A stretch of 64,000 nucleotides of DNA, taken from NCBI RefSeq assembly GCF_018399035.1, contig NZ_CP073760.1, positions 806,001 through 870,000 on the forward strand, read 5' to 3'. The notes below the pieces were generated by a model that worked only from the letters and a program-made list of their open reading frames with translations, searched no databases and was not told where the DNA came from. Positions 4,618-34,280 of the stretch are shown in pieces. Each line of letters begins with the position of its first letter. Position 1 is the first letter of the stretch. The stretch comes from Thiocapsa sp. (GTDB lineage: Bacteria; Pseudomonadota; Gammaproteobacteria; Chromatiales; Chromatiaceae). The position numbers and the translations under genes were made by a program.

Positions 4618-4798
4618 CGTAGGATGGGTAGAGCGCAGCGAAACCCATCCTCCCCGCTCCGACGCCCCGGCCCCGGTACCGGTAAAGCGGCAGCGAAACC
4701 CATCCAGCCCGCGCCGTGGGCATCAGCCCGGAACCGGGCAACGTGGAGGTTTGGAGGATGGGTTTCGCTGCGCTCTACCCATCCTACGACGCTCAGGT
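4618..4798. repeat. Palindromic intergenic element, GGATGGGT family
   Basis: The ends are long inverted repeats: CGTAGGATGGGTAGAGCGCA at the left and its complement ending at 4798, with a further internal partial copy (AGCGAAACCCATCC near 4692). The same unit recurs at 15851-16031 and 33420-33572. Located between metY and msrP. It looks like a non-coding REP/MITE-type element that can form a long hairpin. Confidence 0.8.
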
Positions 4799-15850: not shown

Positions 15851-16031
15851 CGTAGGATGGGTAGAGCGAAGCTAAACCCGTAGGATGGGTAGAGCGAAGC
15901 GAAACCCGTAGGATGGGTAGAGCGAAGCGAAACACGTAGGATGGGTAGAGCGAAGCGAAACCCATCCAGCCCGCTCCAAGCGCATCGGACCGAAACCCGG
16001 CAACGCGGCGGTTTGGAGGATGGGTTTCGCT
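15851..16031. repeat. Tandem 28-bp repeat (4 units) plus right arm of a GGATGGGT-family palindromic element
   Basis: Four head-to-tail 28-bp units begin CGTAGG at 15851, 15879, 15907 and 15935, nearly identical except for one G/T change in the first and C/A in the third. They are followed by a spacer and a degraded inverted right arm (GGAGGATGGGTTTCGCT near 16015). The unit equals the left terminus of the elements at 4618-4798 and 33420-33572, so this copy looks like an element whose left end was amplified in tandem. No coding capacity is evident between 15728 and 16205. Confidence 0.88.
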
Positions 16032-25054: not shown

Positions 25055-25140
25055 CTAAACCGCGCCCAGCGTGGTATGCGATGTTATCGGTGGGATCGGC
25101 CCCGGCAGACTTGACGACCGTTGGAGCCGGCGTGGTTTAA
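25055..25140. repeat. TTAAACCGCG element, subfamily A
   Basis: An 86-bp element running from CTAAACCGCG to CGTGGTTTAA with the A-type interior (CCCAGC, GGTATGCGATGTTAT, GGCCCCGGC, TTGACGACCGTTGGAGCC). Its right end supplies the TAA stop (25137-25139, minus strand) of the RND permease gene. Confidence 0.88.
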
Positions 25141-28100
25141 GCCGTATCAATCTCGGGACGGACGACGCCGATGGCTCGATGCCGATCCGGTGAGAGCAGC
25201 ATGTAGAAGGCCGGTACCACGAAGAGCGTGAAGAGCGTGCCGATGCCCAGCCCCGTGACGATCACCAACCCGATGTCGAAGCGGCTGACCGCGCCCGGAC
25301 CGGTCGCGGTGAGGAGCGGGATCATGGCGACCAGCATGGCGACCGTGGTCATCAGGATCGGGCGAAGCCGGATCGCCGAGGCTTGCTCGACGGCCTCGCG
25401 TTTGGAGAGTCCCTCGCGCTCGCGCAACTGGTTGGAGAACTCCACGATCAGGATGCCGTTCTTGGCGATCAGACCGATGAGCGTGATGAGCCCGACCTGG
25501 GTGTAGATGTTGACACTGGCGAACCCGAGAAAGAGGAAGGCGAGGGCGCCGGCGATGGTGAGCGGGACCGACATGAGGATGACGAAGGGGTCACGCCAGC
25601 TCTCGAACTGGGCGGCCAGCACCAGATAGATGATCAGCAGCGAGAGGAAGAAGGTGACCTCGAGTGCGGCACCTTCGGTCTTGAACTGGCGCGACTCGCC
25701 CTTGTAGTCCCAGCGCACGCCGCGCGGGAAGAGCTCGGACGCCTCTTGCTCCAGATAGGCGAGGGCGGCGCCCAAGGGCACGCCGGGCGTCATGACGCCC
25801 GAGAGCGTGATGGCGTTGAGCTGCTGGAACTGGACGCGTTTGGAGGGCTCGACCTCGTTGCGGATCTCGACCAGCGCCGACAGCGGGATCAGGTCGCCCG
25901 CGGCGTTGCGGACATAAAAGTCCTGCAACTCGCCGATATCGTTGCGGAAACGCTGTGCGACCTGAGGAATCACCTGATAACTGCGGCCTTCCAGGCTGAA
26001 CCAGTTCACATAGTCTTCGTTCAGCATCACCGAGAGGCTGCGGCCGAGATCGGCCATGCTGATCCCCAGATCGCCCGCGAGATCGCGATCGATCTCCAAA
26101 ACAGTGCGCGGCCGCTCGTACTTGATGTCCTTGCTCAGAAACATGAATTTGCCGCTGGCCATGGCCTTGCCGAGCAACTGGTCGGCGAGTCCGTCGAGCT
26201 CGGCGACGGGTCGATCCGAGAGCACGACGAACTCGATCGGAATGCCGTTGCCGGGCGTCGGCAGGCTCGGCCGCGGGAAGACGACCGTCTCCATCCCGGT
26301 GATCTCGCCGAGCATGCCCTGGAGCGGCGGTTGGATCTCCATCTGACCACGCTCGCGCTCCGAGGGCGGCGACATCTTGAAGCCGCCGAAGGTCATGCTC
26401 TGGTCGCCGCCCATGCCGGCGATGATGAAGCTCTCCTCGTACTCGGGAAAGGACTCGAAGATGGGCAGCATCTCGTCGATGTAGCGCAGGTTCAGATCGA
26501 CGGTCGCGGTCTGGGGCGTGGTGCCCATGAAGAAGAGGATGCTCTGGTCCTCGGTCGGGGCCAACTCCTTTTTGGTCATGCTGTACATGCCGTAGATGGC
26601 GCCCAGGATGACGACGGCGACCAGGAGCGTGACGCCCGGATACGTAAGCCAGCGGTGCAGCAGGCGCCGATAACCCTCTGCAAGACGGGCAAACGCATGC
26701 TCCACGCCTTGCTCGAAACGGCCTTGCTCGCTGCCGGCGCGCAGGACGCGTCCGGCGAGCATCGGCGAGAGTGTGAGGGCCACCACGCCGGAGACCACCA
26801 CGGCGCCGGCGAGTGTGAAGGCGAACTCGGTGAAGAGGGAGCCGACCAGCCCGCCCATGAAGCCGATGGGCGCGTAGACGGCGACCAGCGTCGTGGTCAT
26901 GGCGATGATGGGCATGGCCAGCTCGCGCGCGCCGTCGATCGCCGCCTGCGTTCCGCTCTTGCCCATCTCGATGTGTCGGTGCACGTTCTCGACCACGATG
27001 ATGGCGTCGTCGACGACCAGCCCGATGGCCAGAACCATCGCCAGCAATGTCAAGAGGTTGATCGAGAAACCCAAGAGCAGCATGAGGAAGCCGGCGCCGA
27101 CGATCGAGAGCGGCACGGCGACCGAGGGGACCAGGGCGGCACGGAACGAGCCGAGCGACAGAAAGATGACGAGCAGCACGATCAGCACCGCCTCGGCGAG
27201 CGTCTTGAAGACCTCCGTGATGGATTCTTCGATGAACTCGCTGGCGTCGTAGGGCACGAACGCCTTCAGCCCTTCCGGGAATTGGGTCTCGAGCTCGGGC
27301 ATCAGGTTGCGCACCCGTGCGGCGACGTCGAGCGGATTGGAGCCGGGCGCGGGCTCGATGCCGATAAAGATGGCCGGGATGCCCTTGTAGAGCGTGGCCG
27401 AGTCATAGGTTTTGGCACCCATCTCGACCTCGGCGATGTCGTCGAGACGGATCAGGGTGTCGTTCTGGGTGCGCACGACCAGGCGTTGGAAGTCCTCGAC
27501 GCGACTGACGTCGGTGGTCGCCGACACATCGATCTGGACCTGATCCCCGCGCAACCGCCCGATGCCGGCGAGATAGTTGTTCTCGGCGAGCACACGGGCG
27601 ACCTCGTCGCCGCCGACACCCAGCGAGGCCATGCGCGCGGGGTCGAGCCAGATCCGCATCGCAAAGGTCTGGTCGCCGAAGATCTCGGCCTTGGCAATGC
27701 CTTGCAGCGCCTGGAGCTGGGGCTGCACGACCCGGATCAGGTAGTCCGTGATCTGCGGCAGCGTCATCTCCTCGCTGTAGAAGGCGAGATACATGAGTGC
27801 GGTCGAGTCGCCGGTCGTGGAATCGATGACCGGGTTCTGCGCGGCCTCGGGCAGGACGTTCAGACGGCTGGCGACCTTCGCCTGGATCTCGGCGACGGCC
27901 GCGTTGGGGTCGTAGTTGAGGCGCATGTTCGCCTCGATGACCGAGATCCCGGCGGTGCTGGTGCCGACCAGATACTCGATCCCGTTGGCTTCGGCCACCG
28001 CCTGCTGCAGCGGGGTGGTGATGAAGCCCTGGACCAGGTCGCTGCTGGCACCGGGGTAGGCCGTGGTGATGGTGACGACGGTGTTTTGGGTTGCCGGGTA

Positions 28101-28208
28101 TTGACGGATCTCCAGGTCGAGGAAGGCGCGAATGCCGAGGATGAAGATCAAGAGGCTGACGACGGTAGCCAGGACCGGGCGGTGGACGAAGATGTCGGTG
28201 AATTTCAT
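25137..28208 (-). CDS. RND-family multidrug efflux permease (HAE1 type)
   Basis: A 1023-residue inner-membrane proton/drug antiporter of the AcrB/MexB superfamily: N-terminal MKFTDIFVHRPVLATVVSLL, two sets of periplasmic loops and about 12 membrane helices. The paired aspartates of the proton relay are in AIGLVVDDAIIVVENVHR (TM4). The last helices contain LIGLIAKNGILIVEFSNQL. It should pump substrates through a trimeric complex with the adaptor encoded just upstream (4-bp ATGA overlap). No TolC-like outer-membrane gene is nearby, so an unlinked one is probably used. The stop codon is contributed by a repeat element. Confidence 0.94.
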   Translation of the reverse strand: MKFTDIFVHRPVLATVVSLLIFILGIRAFLDLEIRQYPATQNTVVTITTAYPGASSDLVQGFITTPLQQAVAEANGIEYLVGTSTAGISVIEANMRLNYDPNAAVAEIQAKVASRLNVLPEAAQNPVIDSTTGDSTALMYLAFYSEEMTLPQITDYLIRVVQPQLQALQGIAKAEIFGDQTFAMRIWLDPARMASLGVGGDEVARVLAENNYLAGIGRLRGDQVQIDVSATTDVSRVEDFQRLVVRTQNDTLIRLDDIAEVEMGAKTYDSATLYKGIPAIFIGIEPAPGSNPLDVAARVRNLMPELETQFPEGLKAFVPYDASEFIEESITEVFKTLAEAVLIVLLVIFLSLGSFRAALVPSVAVPLSIVGAGFLMLLLGFSINLLTLLAMVLAIGLVVDDAIIVVENVHRHIEMGKSGTQAAIDGARELAMPIIAMTTTLVAVYAPIGFMGGLVGSLFTEFAFTLAGAVVVSGVVALTLSPMLAGRVLRAGSEQGRFEQGVEHAFARLAEGYRRLLHRWLTYPGVTLLVAVVILGAIYGMYSMTKKELAPTEDQSILFFMGTTPQTATVDLNLRYIDEMLPIFESFPEYEESFIIAGMGGDQSMTFGGFKMSPPSERERGQMEIQPPLQGMLGEITGMETVVFPRPSLPTPGNGIPIEFVVLSDRPVAELDGLADQLLGKAMASGKFMFLSKDIKYERPRTVLEIDRDLAGDLGISMADLGRSLSVMLNEDYVNWFSLEGRSYQVIPQVAQRFRNDIGELQDFYVRNAAGDLIPLSALVEIRNEVEPSKRVQFQQLNAITLSGVMTPGVPLGAALAYLEQEASELFPRGVRWDYKGESRQFKTEGAALEVTFFLSLLIIYLVLAAQFESWRDPFVILMSVPLTIAGALAFLFLGFASVNIYTQVGLITLIGLIAKNGILIVEFSNQLREREGLSKREAVEQASAIRLRPILMTTVAMLVAMIPLLTATGPGAVSRFDIGLVIVTGLGIGTLFTLFVVPAFYMLLSPDRHRAIGVVRPEIDTA

Positions 28209-29365
28209 GTCGCCGGGTCCTCGGGAACCCTTTCGGACTGGGGCTCGGGTTCAGGCGCAGGCGTGGGCTCGGATGTGTCGGCCGCGGGCGCCGCGTCCCC
28301 TGCATCGACGATCCGGACCTCTTGAGCGTTGTTGAGTTTGACTTGGCCGGACAAGACGACACGGTCGCCCTCGGCAAGTCCCTCCAGCACCGCGATCTCG
28401 TTTCCGCGTACCGCGCCGGTGCGCACTTGGCGGCGCTCGACGAGCGTCTTGCCGTCCTCCTCCCGGATGACGAAGACCGCGTCGCCGTAGGTATTGAAGG
28501 CGATGGCTTCACGCGGGATGGTCAGCACGGCGTCCTCGCGCGGCAAGAGTGTCGCCACCCGTGCAAACATGCCGGGGCGGAGCGCCAGGTCCGGATTGCT
28601 CAGGCCCGCACGGACCCGGACGTTGCGCGTGCCTTGGTCGATCCCCGGGCTGATGACCTGGATGACCCCGTCGAAGATCCGGTCCGGGTGCGCGGAGACG
28701 CGCACCTGCACCGGTTGTCCGACCTGCAGAAGTCCCAGGTGGCGTTCGGGCAGGGCGTAGTCGACATAAACCGGATCCAGGGTCTGAAGCGGGACGATCG
28801 AGGAGCCTTCGGCAAGGAACTGCCCGAGGTCGATCCGACGGATGCCCAGTTGTCCGTCGAAGGGCGCGCGGATCGTCTTCTTCTCGATCGTCGCCTGTTT
28901 GGCCTTGACCTGTGCGCGGGCCTGATCGAGCTGCGCGCTGAGTTCGTCGAAGTCGCCTTGAGCGACAGCACGGTCCTTGAGCAGCGAGCGGTTGCGGTCG
29001 ACCTTGATCTGCGCGAGGCGCTCCGCGGCCTGCAATCCCTCCAGGTCGGCGCGATCGACCTCATCGGCCAGCTGGACCAGGATGTCGCCTTTCTTGACCA
29101 TCGCGCCCGATTCGAACGCGATCGCCGTCACCTGTCCGGCGACCTCGTTGTTCACCTCCACGCCCTGGATCGCCTGCAGGGTGCCGACCGCCTCCAGGGT
29201 CGGCTCCCAAGCCGTCGTCTCGACCGTCACGGCGGTCACCGTCGGTGCCGGCATGGGTTGCGAGAACATGGCGCTCTCGGACTGGATCTGACTGTATTTC
29301 GCGTAGCCGAGGGCGCCGATCACTGCGGCCAGCACCATCAACACAAGCAGGATTCGGACGAACAT
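28205..29365 (-). CDS. RND efflux periplasmic adaptor (membrane fusion protein)
   Basis: A 386-residue adaptor with an N-terminal membrane anchor (FVRILLVLMVLAAVIGALGY), lipoyl-like half-motifs (VNNEVAGQVTAIAFESGAMV and FDGQLGIRRIDLGQFLAEGS), a helical hairpin between them (about residues 110-165) and a beta-barrel domain (VDYALPERHLGLLQVGQPV). The C-terminus is Pro/Glu-rich. The start is placed at the ATG 29365 so the anchor lies at the N-terminus; about 27 extra upstream residues in frame have no anchor character. Co-transcribed with the permease. Confidence 0.9.
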   Translation of the reverse strand: MFVRILLVLMVLAAVIGALGYAKYSQIQSESAMFSQPMPAPTVTAVTVETTAWEPTLEAVGTLQAIQGVEVNNEVAGQVTAIAFESGAMVKKGDILVQLADEVDRADLEGLQAAERLAQIKVDRNRSLLKDRAVAQGDFDELSAQLDQARAQVKAKQATIEKKTIRAPFDGQLGIRRIDLGQFLAEGSSIVPLQTLDPVYVDYALPERHLGLLQVGQPVQVRVSAHPDRIFDGVIQVISPGIDQGTRNVRVRAGLSNPDLALRPGMFARVATLLPREDAVLTIPREAIAFNTYGDAVFVIREEDGKTLVERRQVRTGAVRGNEIAVLEGLAEGDRVVLSGQVKLNNAQEVRIVDAGDAAPAADTSEPTPAPEPEPQSERVPEDPAT

Positions 29366-29472
29366 GGGCGAGCTGTGCCTCTTTGAAAACGCCGTTGACG
29401 TGGCTTCGGGTCGTTGGTACACCGGATCCGGGGTCCGCCAAAACACCCGATCCGAAGCACTCGACGATGGGG

Positions 29473-29569
29473 TTAAACCCCGCCCAGCGCGGTATGCGAT
29501 GTTTTTTGATCGGGTCGGATCGGATCGGCCTCGGCCGACTTGACGACCGTTGGAGTCAGCGCGGTTTAA
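29473..29569. repeat. TTAAACCGCG element, subfamily A (expanded)
   Basis: A 97-bp element from TTAAACCCCG to GCGCGGTTTAA. The interior has the A-type GCGCGGTATGCGATGTT and TTGACGACCGTTGGAG blocks, plus an extra duplicated GGTCGGATCGGATCGG stretch. Its right end supplies the TAA stop (29566-29568, minus strand) of the CysZ/J-domain gene. Confidence 0.87.
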
Positions 29570-30747
29570 TCCAACAGGACCTGTTTCGCCTCGTTGATCT
29601 TGGAGGCCAGATAGTCCGAGCCGCCCCGGTCCGGATGCAGACGCTGGATCAGTCGCCGGTGTGCGCTCCGAACCTCTTGCGGACCGGCGTCGGGGCCGAT
29701 ACCGAGGATGGCGCGGGCCTCGTCGGACGGCATCTGCTCGATCGGTGCGTGCGGTGTCTCGGCGTGTCGGCGGTGCGGCGCCTCCGCGGTCTTGCGTCCG
29801 CGCTCGCGATCGAGGTAGACCTCGAGCGCCTCGGCCGACTCGGGGTCGCCTGCATAGCAGGTCTCGAGCATCTCGACGAGATCATCCGTCGGCACCTGAT
29901 CGAGCGACTGCCCTGCGTGTGGTCCGGCCAGCACCTCGCCGCCGATCCGGCCCGAAAGATGGTCGATTTCGAGCAGGACGCAGCGCGTCGCGACGCGAGA
30001 CCGGGTTGGGCTCTGATAGTTGGTCGCGCCCTTCAGCTCGCGGACCCACATGGCGGTGGCACCCGCCACGGCGCTCGGCATGAGGATGAAATTGACCAGC
30101 GGCACCATGCTCAGCATGGCCGCAGAAGCGCCGAAACCAAGGCTCATCCCGCGTTGCCGACCGAGACGTCGGCGCATCTCGCGAAACTTCAGCCCGTGGT
30201 TTCCCATCGGATAATCCGAATACTGAACGGCCAATACCCAGGCAATGTACAGAAACCAGAGGATCTGTCCGACGACGGGCACAAACAACAACAGCAAGAA
30301 AGGAATCGCAAGAACAACGGCATACAGCAGTTTTCGGATCTCGTCGACGAGCGTCGGCACGATCTCGGACATGACGCCGGCAAGGGTGGCGCCCTCATCG
30401 AGCGGGCGCCCGGTGAGCATCCTCTCGACCTTCTCGGCCAAGAGACCGTTGAAGGGCGACGCGATCAGGTTGGCCACCAGCGCGAAGAGGTTGAAGATCA
30501 CGACGAGCAGGACCAGGGCGAACAGAGGCCAAAGCACCCAGTCCAGCCAGCCGAGCCAACTCGGAAGGCGCGCGTCGAGGGTGGCGAGGACGTTTCCGAA
30601 CAGACGCACGCCCAGGGCGATGGCCGCAGAGAAGATTAGAACGTTGATCGCGAGCGGGACAGCGACGAACCGCCGCAACCCGGGTCGGGTGATCAGCCGC
30701 ATGCCCTGGAGCAGGTATCCGGCACCTAGGAGAGGGTTGGTTGCCAT
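29566..30747 (-). CDS. CysZ/EI24-like membrane protein fused to a C-terminal J domain
   Basis: A 393-residue fusion. Residues 1 to about 245 are a CysZ/EI24-type membrane protein (MATNPLLGAGYLLQGMRLIT, four or more hydrophobic spans, LVANLIASPFNGLLAEKVER), the family of sulfate-permease helpers. Residues about 260-340 are a soluble region (LLEIDHLSGRIGGEVLAG, LDQVPTDDLVEMLE) and 345-393 a J domain with the HPD tripeptide (RLIQRLHPDRGGSDYLASKI) characteristic of TIM14/DjlC-like membrane J proteins. Known homologues of the two halves are usually separate. The frame is continuous, with no stop or start at the join. The ATG at 30747 matches the CysZ N-terminus. It could recruit DnaK to the membrane; that is inference. 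Confidence 0.82.
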   Translation of the reverse strand: MATNPLLGAGYLLQGMRLITRPGLRRFVAVPLAINVLIFSAAIALGVRLFGNVLATLDARLPSWLGWLDWVLWPLFALVLLVVIFNLFALVANLIASPFNGLLAEKVERMLTGRPLDEGATLAGVMSEIVPTLVDEIRKLLYAVVLAIPFLLLLFVPVVGQILWFLYIAWVLAVQYSDYPMGNHGLKFREMRRRLGRQRGMSLGFGASAAMLSMVPLVNFILMPSAVAGATAMWVRELKGATNYQSPTRSRVATRCVLLEIDHLSGRIGGEVLAGPHAGQSLDQVPTDDLVEMLETCYAGDPESAEALEVYLDRERGRKTAEAPHRRHAETPHAPIEQMPSDEARAILGIGPDAGPQEVRSAHRRLIQRLHPDRGGSDYLASKINEAKQVLLD

Positions 30748-31028: not shown

Positions 31029-32189
31029 ATGAAAGAGGTCGTGGCCACGCTCGCACAAGCACGAGCAAAACTGGCGGCTATCGATATCGGTAAGACGTCC
31101 GTCTGGACCGTGGCCGTCGCGACTGTTGTCGGAACCCTGTACGTCACGCTTGCAGACCCTTTAGCGGAACCAGCACCGCTGTCTCCGATTCAAGTCGCCG
31201 CCAATCTTGCCCCGATCGGGACCCTGACCTTGACGGCACCGCCGCCGGCTGCCGAGCCTGCAGTGAGCGCTGCCGAGCCTGCGCCCGAGCCGGTGGCGCA
31301 AGCACCTGCCGACGAGGCACCCGCGGAGCCCGAGGCCGCTCCGTCGCCGGCGGCCGGCGCGCCGCACTTCGCGCCCTTGCGGGCAGCGCCTGCAGCGACG
31401 ACTGCGCAACCGGAAATTGCGCCCGAGCCGGCAGCACAAGTCCTTGCTGACGAGGCCGCCCCTGAATCCGCACCGGTGGTGGATTCCGCTGCGGTCGAGC
31501 CCGCTTCCGAGGCTGTCCCCGAGGTCGAGGTCGCAACGGTCCCCGAGGTCGAGGCCGATGTGTCGATGCCCGTTGTCGAGCCGGCCGCCGAGGTCTCCGT
31601 AGAGCCGGCTGCGCCTACGACCCCGGACGCCCTCATCGAGGTGCCGGTGGTCGTCATGCCGGTGACCGCGGAGCCTGTTTCCGAGCCTCCGGCGACGGAG
31701 CCGGCATCGGCCGAAGCGCACATGATCGAGGCGGAGGTCGTCGAGGCGCCGCCGGCCGAGACGCCGGTGTCCTCCGAGCCGGTGGAGACACCCGTCCCGG
31801 TGGAGGCACCCGCTCCGGTAGAGGCACCCGCCCCGGTAGAGGCACCCGCCCCGGTAGAGGCACCCGCTCCGGTAGAGGCACCCGCTCCGGTGGAGGCACC
31901 CGCTCCGGTAGAGGCACCTGCTCCGGTGGAGGCACCCGCCCCGGTGGAGGCACCCGCCCCGGCAGAGGCACCCGCTCCGGTAGAGGCACCAGCTCCGGCG
32001 GAGGCACCTGCTCCGGTAGAGGCACCAGCCCCGGCAGAGGCACCTGCTCCGGTAGAGGCACCCGCCCCGACCCCGGCACCGGACGTGATCGCGCCGGTTG
32101 CGCCTACTCCGGCAACGGAGGTGGCTCCGACACCGCCGGTTGTCCAACCGATGCCGCGTTGGATGAATCACTTCGGTCCCATGCGTTAG
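31029..32189 (+). CDS. Membrane-anchored Pro/Ala/Glu-rich protein with 15 VEAPAP repeats
   Basis: A 386-residue protein of unrecognised function. About residues 20-42 form one hydrophobic helix (TSVWTVAVATVVGTLYVTLA) after a short cytoplasmic start; the rest is an extended acidic Pro/Ala/Glu/Val domain without globular character. Residues 258-347 are fifteen consecutive hexapeptides VEAPAP (some AEAPAP). It ends in PMPRWMNHFGPMR, the only aromatic-rich part. The composition resembles the periplasm-spanning rods of TonB-like proteins, but there is no TonB C-terminal domain. The ATG at 31029 has CGAGGA upstream. It precedes the DUF2333 gene by 156 bp, so they may be linked. Confidence 0.8.
   Translation: MKEVVATLAQARAKLAAIDIGKTSVWTVAVATVVGTLYVTLADPLAEPAPLSPIQVAANLAPIGTLTLTAPPPAAEPAVSAAEPAPEPVAQAPADEAPAEPEAAPSPAAGAPHFAPLRAAPAATTAQPEIAPEPAAQVLADEAAPESAPVVDSAAVEPASEAVPEVEVATVPEVEADVSMPVVEPAAEVSVEPAAPTTPDALIEVPVVVMPVTAEPVSEPPATEPASAEAHMIEAEVVEAPPAETPVSSEPVETPVPVEAPAPVEAPAPVEAPAPVEAPAPVEAPAPVEAPAPVEAPAPVEAPAPVEAPAPAEAPAPVEAPAPAEAPAPVEAPAPAEAPAPVEAPAPTPAPDVIAPVAPTPATEVAPTPPVVQPMPRWMNHFGPMR
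31800..32069 (+). repeat. 18-bp tandem repeat, 15 units, inside the VEAPAP protein gene
   Basis: Fifteen in-frame units of the type GTAGAGGCACCCGCTCCG run without interruption. Third-position changes (GTA/GTG, CCC/CCT/CCA, GCT/GCC) and three GCA/GCG (Ala) replacements distinguish units. Later units alternate V and A at the first position, suggesting 36-bp duplications. Confidence 0.92.
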
Positions 32190-33419: not shown

Positions 33420-33572
33420 CGTAGGATGGGTAGAGCGCAGCGAAACCCATCCTCCAAACGACAGCGTCTATTGACGAAGCGGCGAAGCGAAATCCGGCCT
33501 CCAAGCCGCGACGTCTGTCCGACGACATCGGCGTGCGAAGGATGGGTTTCGCTGCGCTCTACCCATCCGACG
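33420..33572. repeat. Palindromic intergenic element, GGATGGGT family
   Basis: Left end CGTAGGATGGGTAGAGCGCA and a complementary right end (AAGGATGGGTTTCGCTGCGC onward) surround a 75-bp centre. Same termini as 4618-4798. It lies between the convergent DUF2333 gene and cysC and may serve as a two-way terminator. Confidence 0.85.
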
Positions 33573-33620: not shown

Positions 33621-34280
33621 TTAGGATCTCGGGAGGATGATCCCGCTCGAGCGAAGGTAGGCGATCACCTCGTCGGCCAAGACTTCCGGCGGGTTCCCGC
33701 CGGCATGCAGCTGCAACTCCGGTGCGGTCGGTTCTTCATACGGATCGTCGATCCCGGTAAATCCCTTGATCTCGCCGGCCCGTGCCTTCTTGTAGAGCCC
33801 CTTGGGGTCGCGGGTCTCGCAGATCTCGATCGGGGTATCGACGAAGACCTCGATGAAGTCGCCTTCCGGCATGGCGCGACGGACCCGGTCACGGTCCGCG
33901 CGATAGGGACTGATGAAGGCGGTCAGGGCGATGATGCCGGCTTGCGCAAAGAGGTGTGCGACCGCACCGATCCGTCGAATGTTCTCTTCACGATCGATCG
34001 CGGAGAATCCGAGGCCGAAACGCTGTGCGAACTCCTCGCCATGAACATCAAGGAGCATCCCGGGGCCGGCGTTGAGGGCATGGCGGACATTATCGCCGTC
34101 CAGTACCGCACTGTGGATGCCCTGCTGGTGGAGCCGATGGTCCAGCGTATTGGCGATCGTGCTCTTTCCCGAGCCGCTGAGCCCGGTGAACCAGAGCACG
34201 CAGCCCTTGTGACCCTTCATTGCTTCGCGATCTACGCGCGAGACCTGATGCTCATGCCAGGTCACATTGGTGTCGTTCAT
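33621..34280 (-). CDS. cysC: Adenylyl-sulfate (APS) kinase
   Basis: A 219-residue soluble kinase phosphorylating APS to PAPS. The P-loop is in [17 protein letters not shown] (about residues 31-47), and the family blocks [23 protein letters not shown] and [14 protein letters not shown] follow in order. The C-terminal [17 protein letters not shown] segment is also typical. No sulfurylase gene is adjacent. PAPS may serve sulfate assimilation or sulfation; this copy stands alone. The length is near the usual 200-210 residues. Confidence 0.93.

Follow-up and report, generated by a model that had tools for sequence, protein, structure and literature searches.

J-domain proteins decide where Hsp70 works. 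In TIM14 (Pam18), part of the mitochondrial import motor, a short-type J-domain forms the C-terminus of a membrane protein with a single membrane helix, whose partner at a protein translocase is TIM16. More generally, a review portrays J-domains as late additions through which a process gains chaperone activity, and it covers membrane J proteins for which membrane clients have been proposed (PMC8215388). Of the E. coli membrane-bound class C J-domain proteins DjlA, DjlB and DjlC, the latter two were proposed to serve membrane-protein clients together with HscC (PMC8215388). CysZ is a sulfate permease whose sulfate site and pore residues have been defined; its crystals contain an antiparallel oligomer in which the two termini of the chain are located in the hydrophilic head (PMC5967866). 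Known CysZ proteins end at about residue 240-260. No description of CysZ or EI24 and a J-domain in one protein was found in the open literature searched, as the preliminary description of this DNA had supposed, although an earlier tabulation is possible in the survey of Barriot et al. 2020, which lay outside that search. The papers found that name both CysZ and DnaJ are, by title and abstract, genome or expression surveys.

Such a protein, here called CysZ-J, is encoded in the window, a stretch of 64,000 nucleotides of Thiocapsa sp. DNA taken from a 5.7 Mb genome assembled as a single contig (Table 1). Its gene was read directly as one stop-free frame on the minus strand; the single frame had been reported before, with no strand given. 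The start codon is consistent with the N-termini of CysZ in relatives.

Table 1. Coordinates in the window of cysZ-J, of the parts of its product and of neighbouring genes.
Feature	Position	Strand	Residues or length	Evidence and remarks
cysZ-J fusion gene	29566..30747	-	393 aa + stop	ATG start at 30747
CysZ/EI24 permease domain	30022..30747	-	1-242	PF07264, NF003433; Foldseek to 3tx3, 6d9z, 6d79
GLRR sulfate-binding motif	30670..30681	-	23-26	aligned to PdCysZ G21-L22-R23
linker	29992..30021	-	243-252	pLDDT <50 at 241-246
middle domain	29794..29991	-	253-318	three strands + two helices; no Pfam family
flexible spacer, variable	29734..29793	-	319-338	pLDDT <50 at 325-337
TIM14-like J-domain	29569..29733	-	339-393	PF00226; 2guz TIM14; dN/dS 0.089
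HPD motif	29629..29637	-	371-373	direct reading
Ala/Pro/Glu-rich protein	31029-32189	+		neighbour, divergent from cysZ-J; 18-base unit present 16 times (PVEAPA repeats)
APS kinase CysC	33621-34280	-		PF01583, 221 bits; ~3 kb upstream of cysZ-J
RND efflux pump and membrane-fusion protein genes	25137-29446	-		after cysZ-J, same strand

The membrane part (residues 11-224) was matched by the Pfam EI24 model with 179 bits (cut-off 32), and residues 6-241 by the NCBIfam CysZ equivalog model with 271.5 bits (cut-off 140). By family membership it is a predicted complete CysZ sulfate permease, which shares with the solved CysZ proteins the full-length domain, the fold, the GLR motif and the pore residues and differs from them in about 150 additional C-terminal residues that include the J-domain. 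G23, L24 and R25 are present in the window protein together with N35, N93, N100, E108, N183, N219 and W234; R110 of PdCysZ is replaced by T112, as in most unfused relatives. Across 41 fused copies GLR and N35, N93, N100, E108, E136, N183, N219 and W234 are invariant or nearly so, and the sulfate-site and pore residues are as well conserved in fused as in unfused CysZ. In all three fused genomes tested cysZ-J is the sole EI24 gene.

At the other end, residues 347-393 were matched by the Pfam DnaJ model with 28.9 bits (cut-off 27.8). By sequence, the best match among solved structures was yeast TIM14 (2guz, E 1.9e-6), and Foldseek with the model of CysZ-J returned the CysZ structures followed by the same TIM14 entry. 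HPD is invariant in the alignments of the 41 fused copies, as is the AHRRL helix (basic helix II), and a Pfam search of CysZ-J found none of the zinc-finger or DnaJ C-terminal families. Judged by its sequence, CysZ-J belongs to the membrane-bound J-domain proteins of class C: it has HPD and basic helix II and lacks the other DnaJ domains. It thus fits a known class, and its permease partner is what appears to be new: in TIM14 neither an ion permease nor a middle domain is present, and DjlA, DjlB and DjlC carry no permease. The Pam16 model gave 14.6 bits only on CysZ-J, and the DjlA model 19.6 bits against 162. The assignments made in the preliminary description, an EI24/CysZ membrane protein joined to a TIM14-like module with an intact HPD motif, therefore hold for both halves.

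Between the two halves lies a third conserved module, the middle domain, which the preliminary description lacked, as it lacked the source of the module in a separate J protein, the lineage-specific losses and the question of topology treated below. In the AlphaFold2 model (mean pLDDT 80) the CysZ fold is followed by a disordered joint, the middle domain, the spacer and the J-domain; the structure prediction of the linker that had been suggested thus gives a disordered connection. Length and sequence of the linker are alike in most fused copies. The middle domain (~65 aa, alpha/beta) has no Pfam family, a fold search gave matches to the J-domain alone, and it is homologous to the corresponding region of a separate J protein.

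That protein is encoded elsewhere in the same genome (G000 C1:368763-369527, 255 aa) and consists of an N-terminal hydrophobic region, a middle domain and a TIM14-like J-domain. Its middle and J parts are 38-50% identical to the fused module, but it has a hydrophobic anchor instead of CysZ, and its J part falls outside the fused clade. A protein of 239 aa with no Pfam match (L002 639-1358) ends just before the separate J gene, and the two genes possibly form one operon.

Of 210 genomes from the same family, 42 carry the fusion as one unbroken frame; they fall into ten genus groups and include isolate and complete assemblies. All 11 genomes in the genus group of the window have it in full. More than 20 named records carry it without interruption, among them Thiocapsa marina, T. 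roseopersicina, Thiocystis, Thiorhodococcus, Thiobaca, Marichromatium, Allochromatium and Imhoffiella. These genomes and records rule out a missing stop or start, and a mistake of sequencing or assembly, or the misreading of two genes as a single one, can hardly be credited against them; the earlier proposal that the fusion be sought across the family is answered in the same way, since it is not peculiar to one assembly. In a class-wide sample of 369 genomes of Gammaproteobacteria the window's own fusion was the only one found, and CysZ was otherwise plain; 20 long open frames in this sample were checked and are extended upstream only.

The gene neighbourhood of cysZ-J differs between genera, and an operon explanation was rejected: shared neighbours are limited to Thiocapsa and its vicinity, with a slightly wider range for the RND pair. 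Because neighbours are not conserved beyond Thiocapsa and a few others, the fusion itself is what is kept. The proximity of cysC is restricted to loci of the Thiocapsa group; the RND pair is still near cysZ-J in Marichromatium, Imhoffiella and Thiorhodococcus minor, with additional DNA in between. The Ala/Pro/Glu-rich neighbour has no Pfam matches and related copies in other Thiocapsa.

For eight Thiocapsa copies dN/dS was 0.16 in both CysZ and the middle domain, rose to 0.43 in the spacer and was lowest in the J-domain (Table 1), which is the most constrained part; purifying selection thus extends over all folded parts. Given the low dN/dS, the invariant HPD and the retained sulfate-site and pore residues, selection appears to act on both the CysZ and the J half within one protein. 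A chance fusion with a neutral J passenger of no specific role is consistent with the loss of the J part at least twice while CysZ was retained; it is contradicted by the strong constraint on the J-domain and its invariant HPD, and we regard it as very improbable. As both halves are under strong selection, CysZ-J looks like a real, conserved membrane co-chaperone in a group of purple sulfur bacteria.

The 25 fused copies in a tree of the middle and J region formed one clade with support of 100/100 on a long stem, which fits one fusion of a diverged paralogue of the separate J protein. In the CysZ tree the fusion label requires six changes, and the unfused long-branch rows g16, g22 and g76 are uncertainly placed; one gain followed by loss in Chromatium okenii/C. 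weissei and in Allochromatium warmingii is clear. No relic of the J part was found behind the stops of unfused CysZ genes. Sister species with and without the J part provide a clean natural experiment.

The placement of a predicted DnaK-recruiting domain at the membrane, as the preliminary description had it, is well supported by inference. On insertion, the hydrophilic head and the two ends of the CysZ domain would come to lie in the cytoplasm, so that the middle domain and the J-domain would be held at the cytoplasmic face by two flexible tethers. The J-domain would recruit DnaK and trigger ATP hydrolysis through HPD, and DnaK would then act beside the permease, most likely on CysZ itself, where it might attend to labile half-inserted hairpins, help the oligomer to assemble, or take part in repair or turnover. 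Recruitment of DnaK to the cytoplasmic face of the sole CysZ permease, with CysZ as its likely client, is in our opinion the best explanation and somewhat favoured by the evidence. CysZ would be the likeliest client because it is the sole partner chosen although an anchored J protein already existed, and because its H4b-H5a hairpin is unusually labile (PMC5967866).

The same paralogue gives weight to another reading, in which CysZ serves mainly as a membrane anchor or location tag and the J-domain directs DnaK to other inner-membrane clients, for instance sulfur enzymes or newly synthesised membrane proteins; the paralogue may do likewise from its own anchor. Since the separate J protein carries the same middle and J parts behind a hydrophobic region, CysZ stands in place of a former anchor, and the module need not be specific for CysZ. 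CysZ, moreover, is not strictly dependent on the J part, as Chromatium and Allochromatium warmingii keep the permease without it. Against this, the separate anchored J protein is retained in nearly all fused genomes examined, so that an anchor was already available; CysZ is the only partner; and its pore and sulfate residues stay conserved. In some genomes with the fusion, or descended from such, the middle domain is missing from the separate J protein, as the anchor role would allow, but such short proteins also occur where there is no fusion (G029, G037). We consider the anchor role a possible but doubtful explanation.

The short separate J proteins occur in Allochromatium, Chromatium, Thiorhodococcus drewsii and Imhoffiella (L164-L171, L161-L163), with open frames of 160-200 aa against about 250-280; these lineages all have, or descend from, the CysZ-J fusion. 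That the loss of the middle domain tracks the fusion is suggestive; it was not used as evidence because of the short forms without fusion.

With recruitment of DnaK to CysZ as the preferred reading, a further step may be considered. DnaK docked by the J-domain might assemble, open or close a CysZ held in a single orientation; such a chaperone-controlled anion channel seems unlikely to us, and if true it would couple sulfate flow in sulfur-oxidising phototrophs to the chaperone state. As an explanation in its own right, docking of DnaK could gate or remodel the CysZ oligomer and control sulfate flow by stress or DnaK supply, the flow being either sulfate uptake or release of sulfate from sulfur oxidation. 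Purple sulfur bacteria make sulfate from sulfide, and the fusion is confined to them; SulP proteins are encoded in the window genome, where no CysT match exceeded the cut-off. Sulfate also passes through CysZ passively, and the crystallised forms are closed (PMC5967866). Many sulfur oxidisers nevertheless have plain CysZ, and A. vinosum also has CysT. We consider regulation of this kind distinctly improbable. On either account the J-domain is built into an ion permease, a type of partner for which no report was found.

The orientation of CysZ is critical here, because DnaK is cytoplasmic and a useful J-domain needs the head inside. For unfused CysZ, crystal structures and cross-links favour an inverted dual topology (PMC5967866); half of the J-domains would then lie outside. 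Lys and Arg residues number about 17 in the stretches on the head side of fused copies, and the distal H2-H3 loop has about 1; the corresponding counts in unfused copies are about 14 and 0.4. From this bias the positive-inside rule predicts a cytoplasmic head and C-terminus in fused and unfused CysZ, and such a prediction for all CysZ would be in tension with equal dual topology. Since DnaK would be out of reach of a J-domain on the other side of the membrane, CysZ-J bears on this question; it is a natural topology marker, by which the claim of two orientations for CysZ becomes directly testable.

A 31-base REP-like element (GTAGGATGGGTNGAGCGNAGCGAAACCCATC) has 8 near matches in the window, where 0 are expected. 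They lie at 4619-4649, 4757-4787, 15852-15966, 33421-33451 and 33541-33571 and are arranged as two inverted pairs plus four in tandem. The element is absent from G003 (same genus) and G141; 10 exact copies are present in G063 and 95 in the genome of the window.
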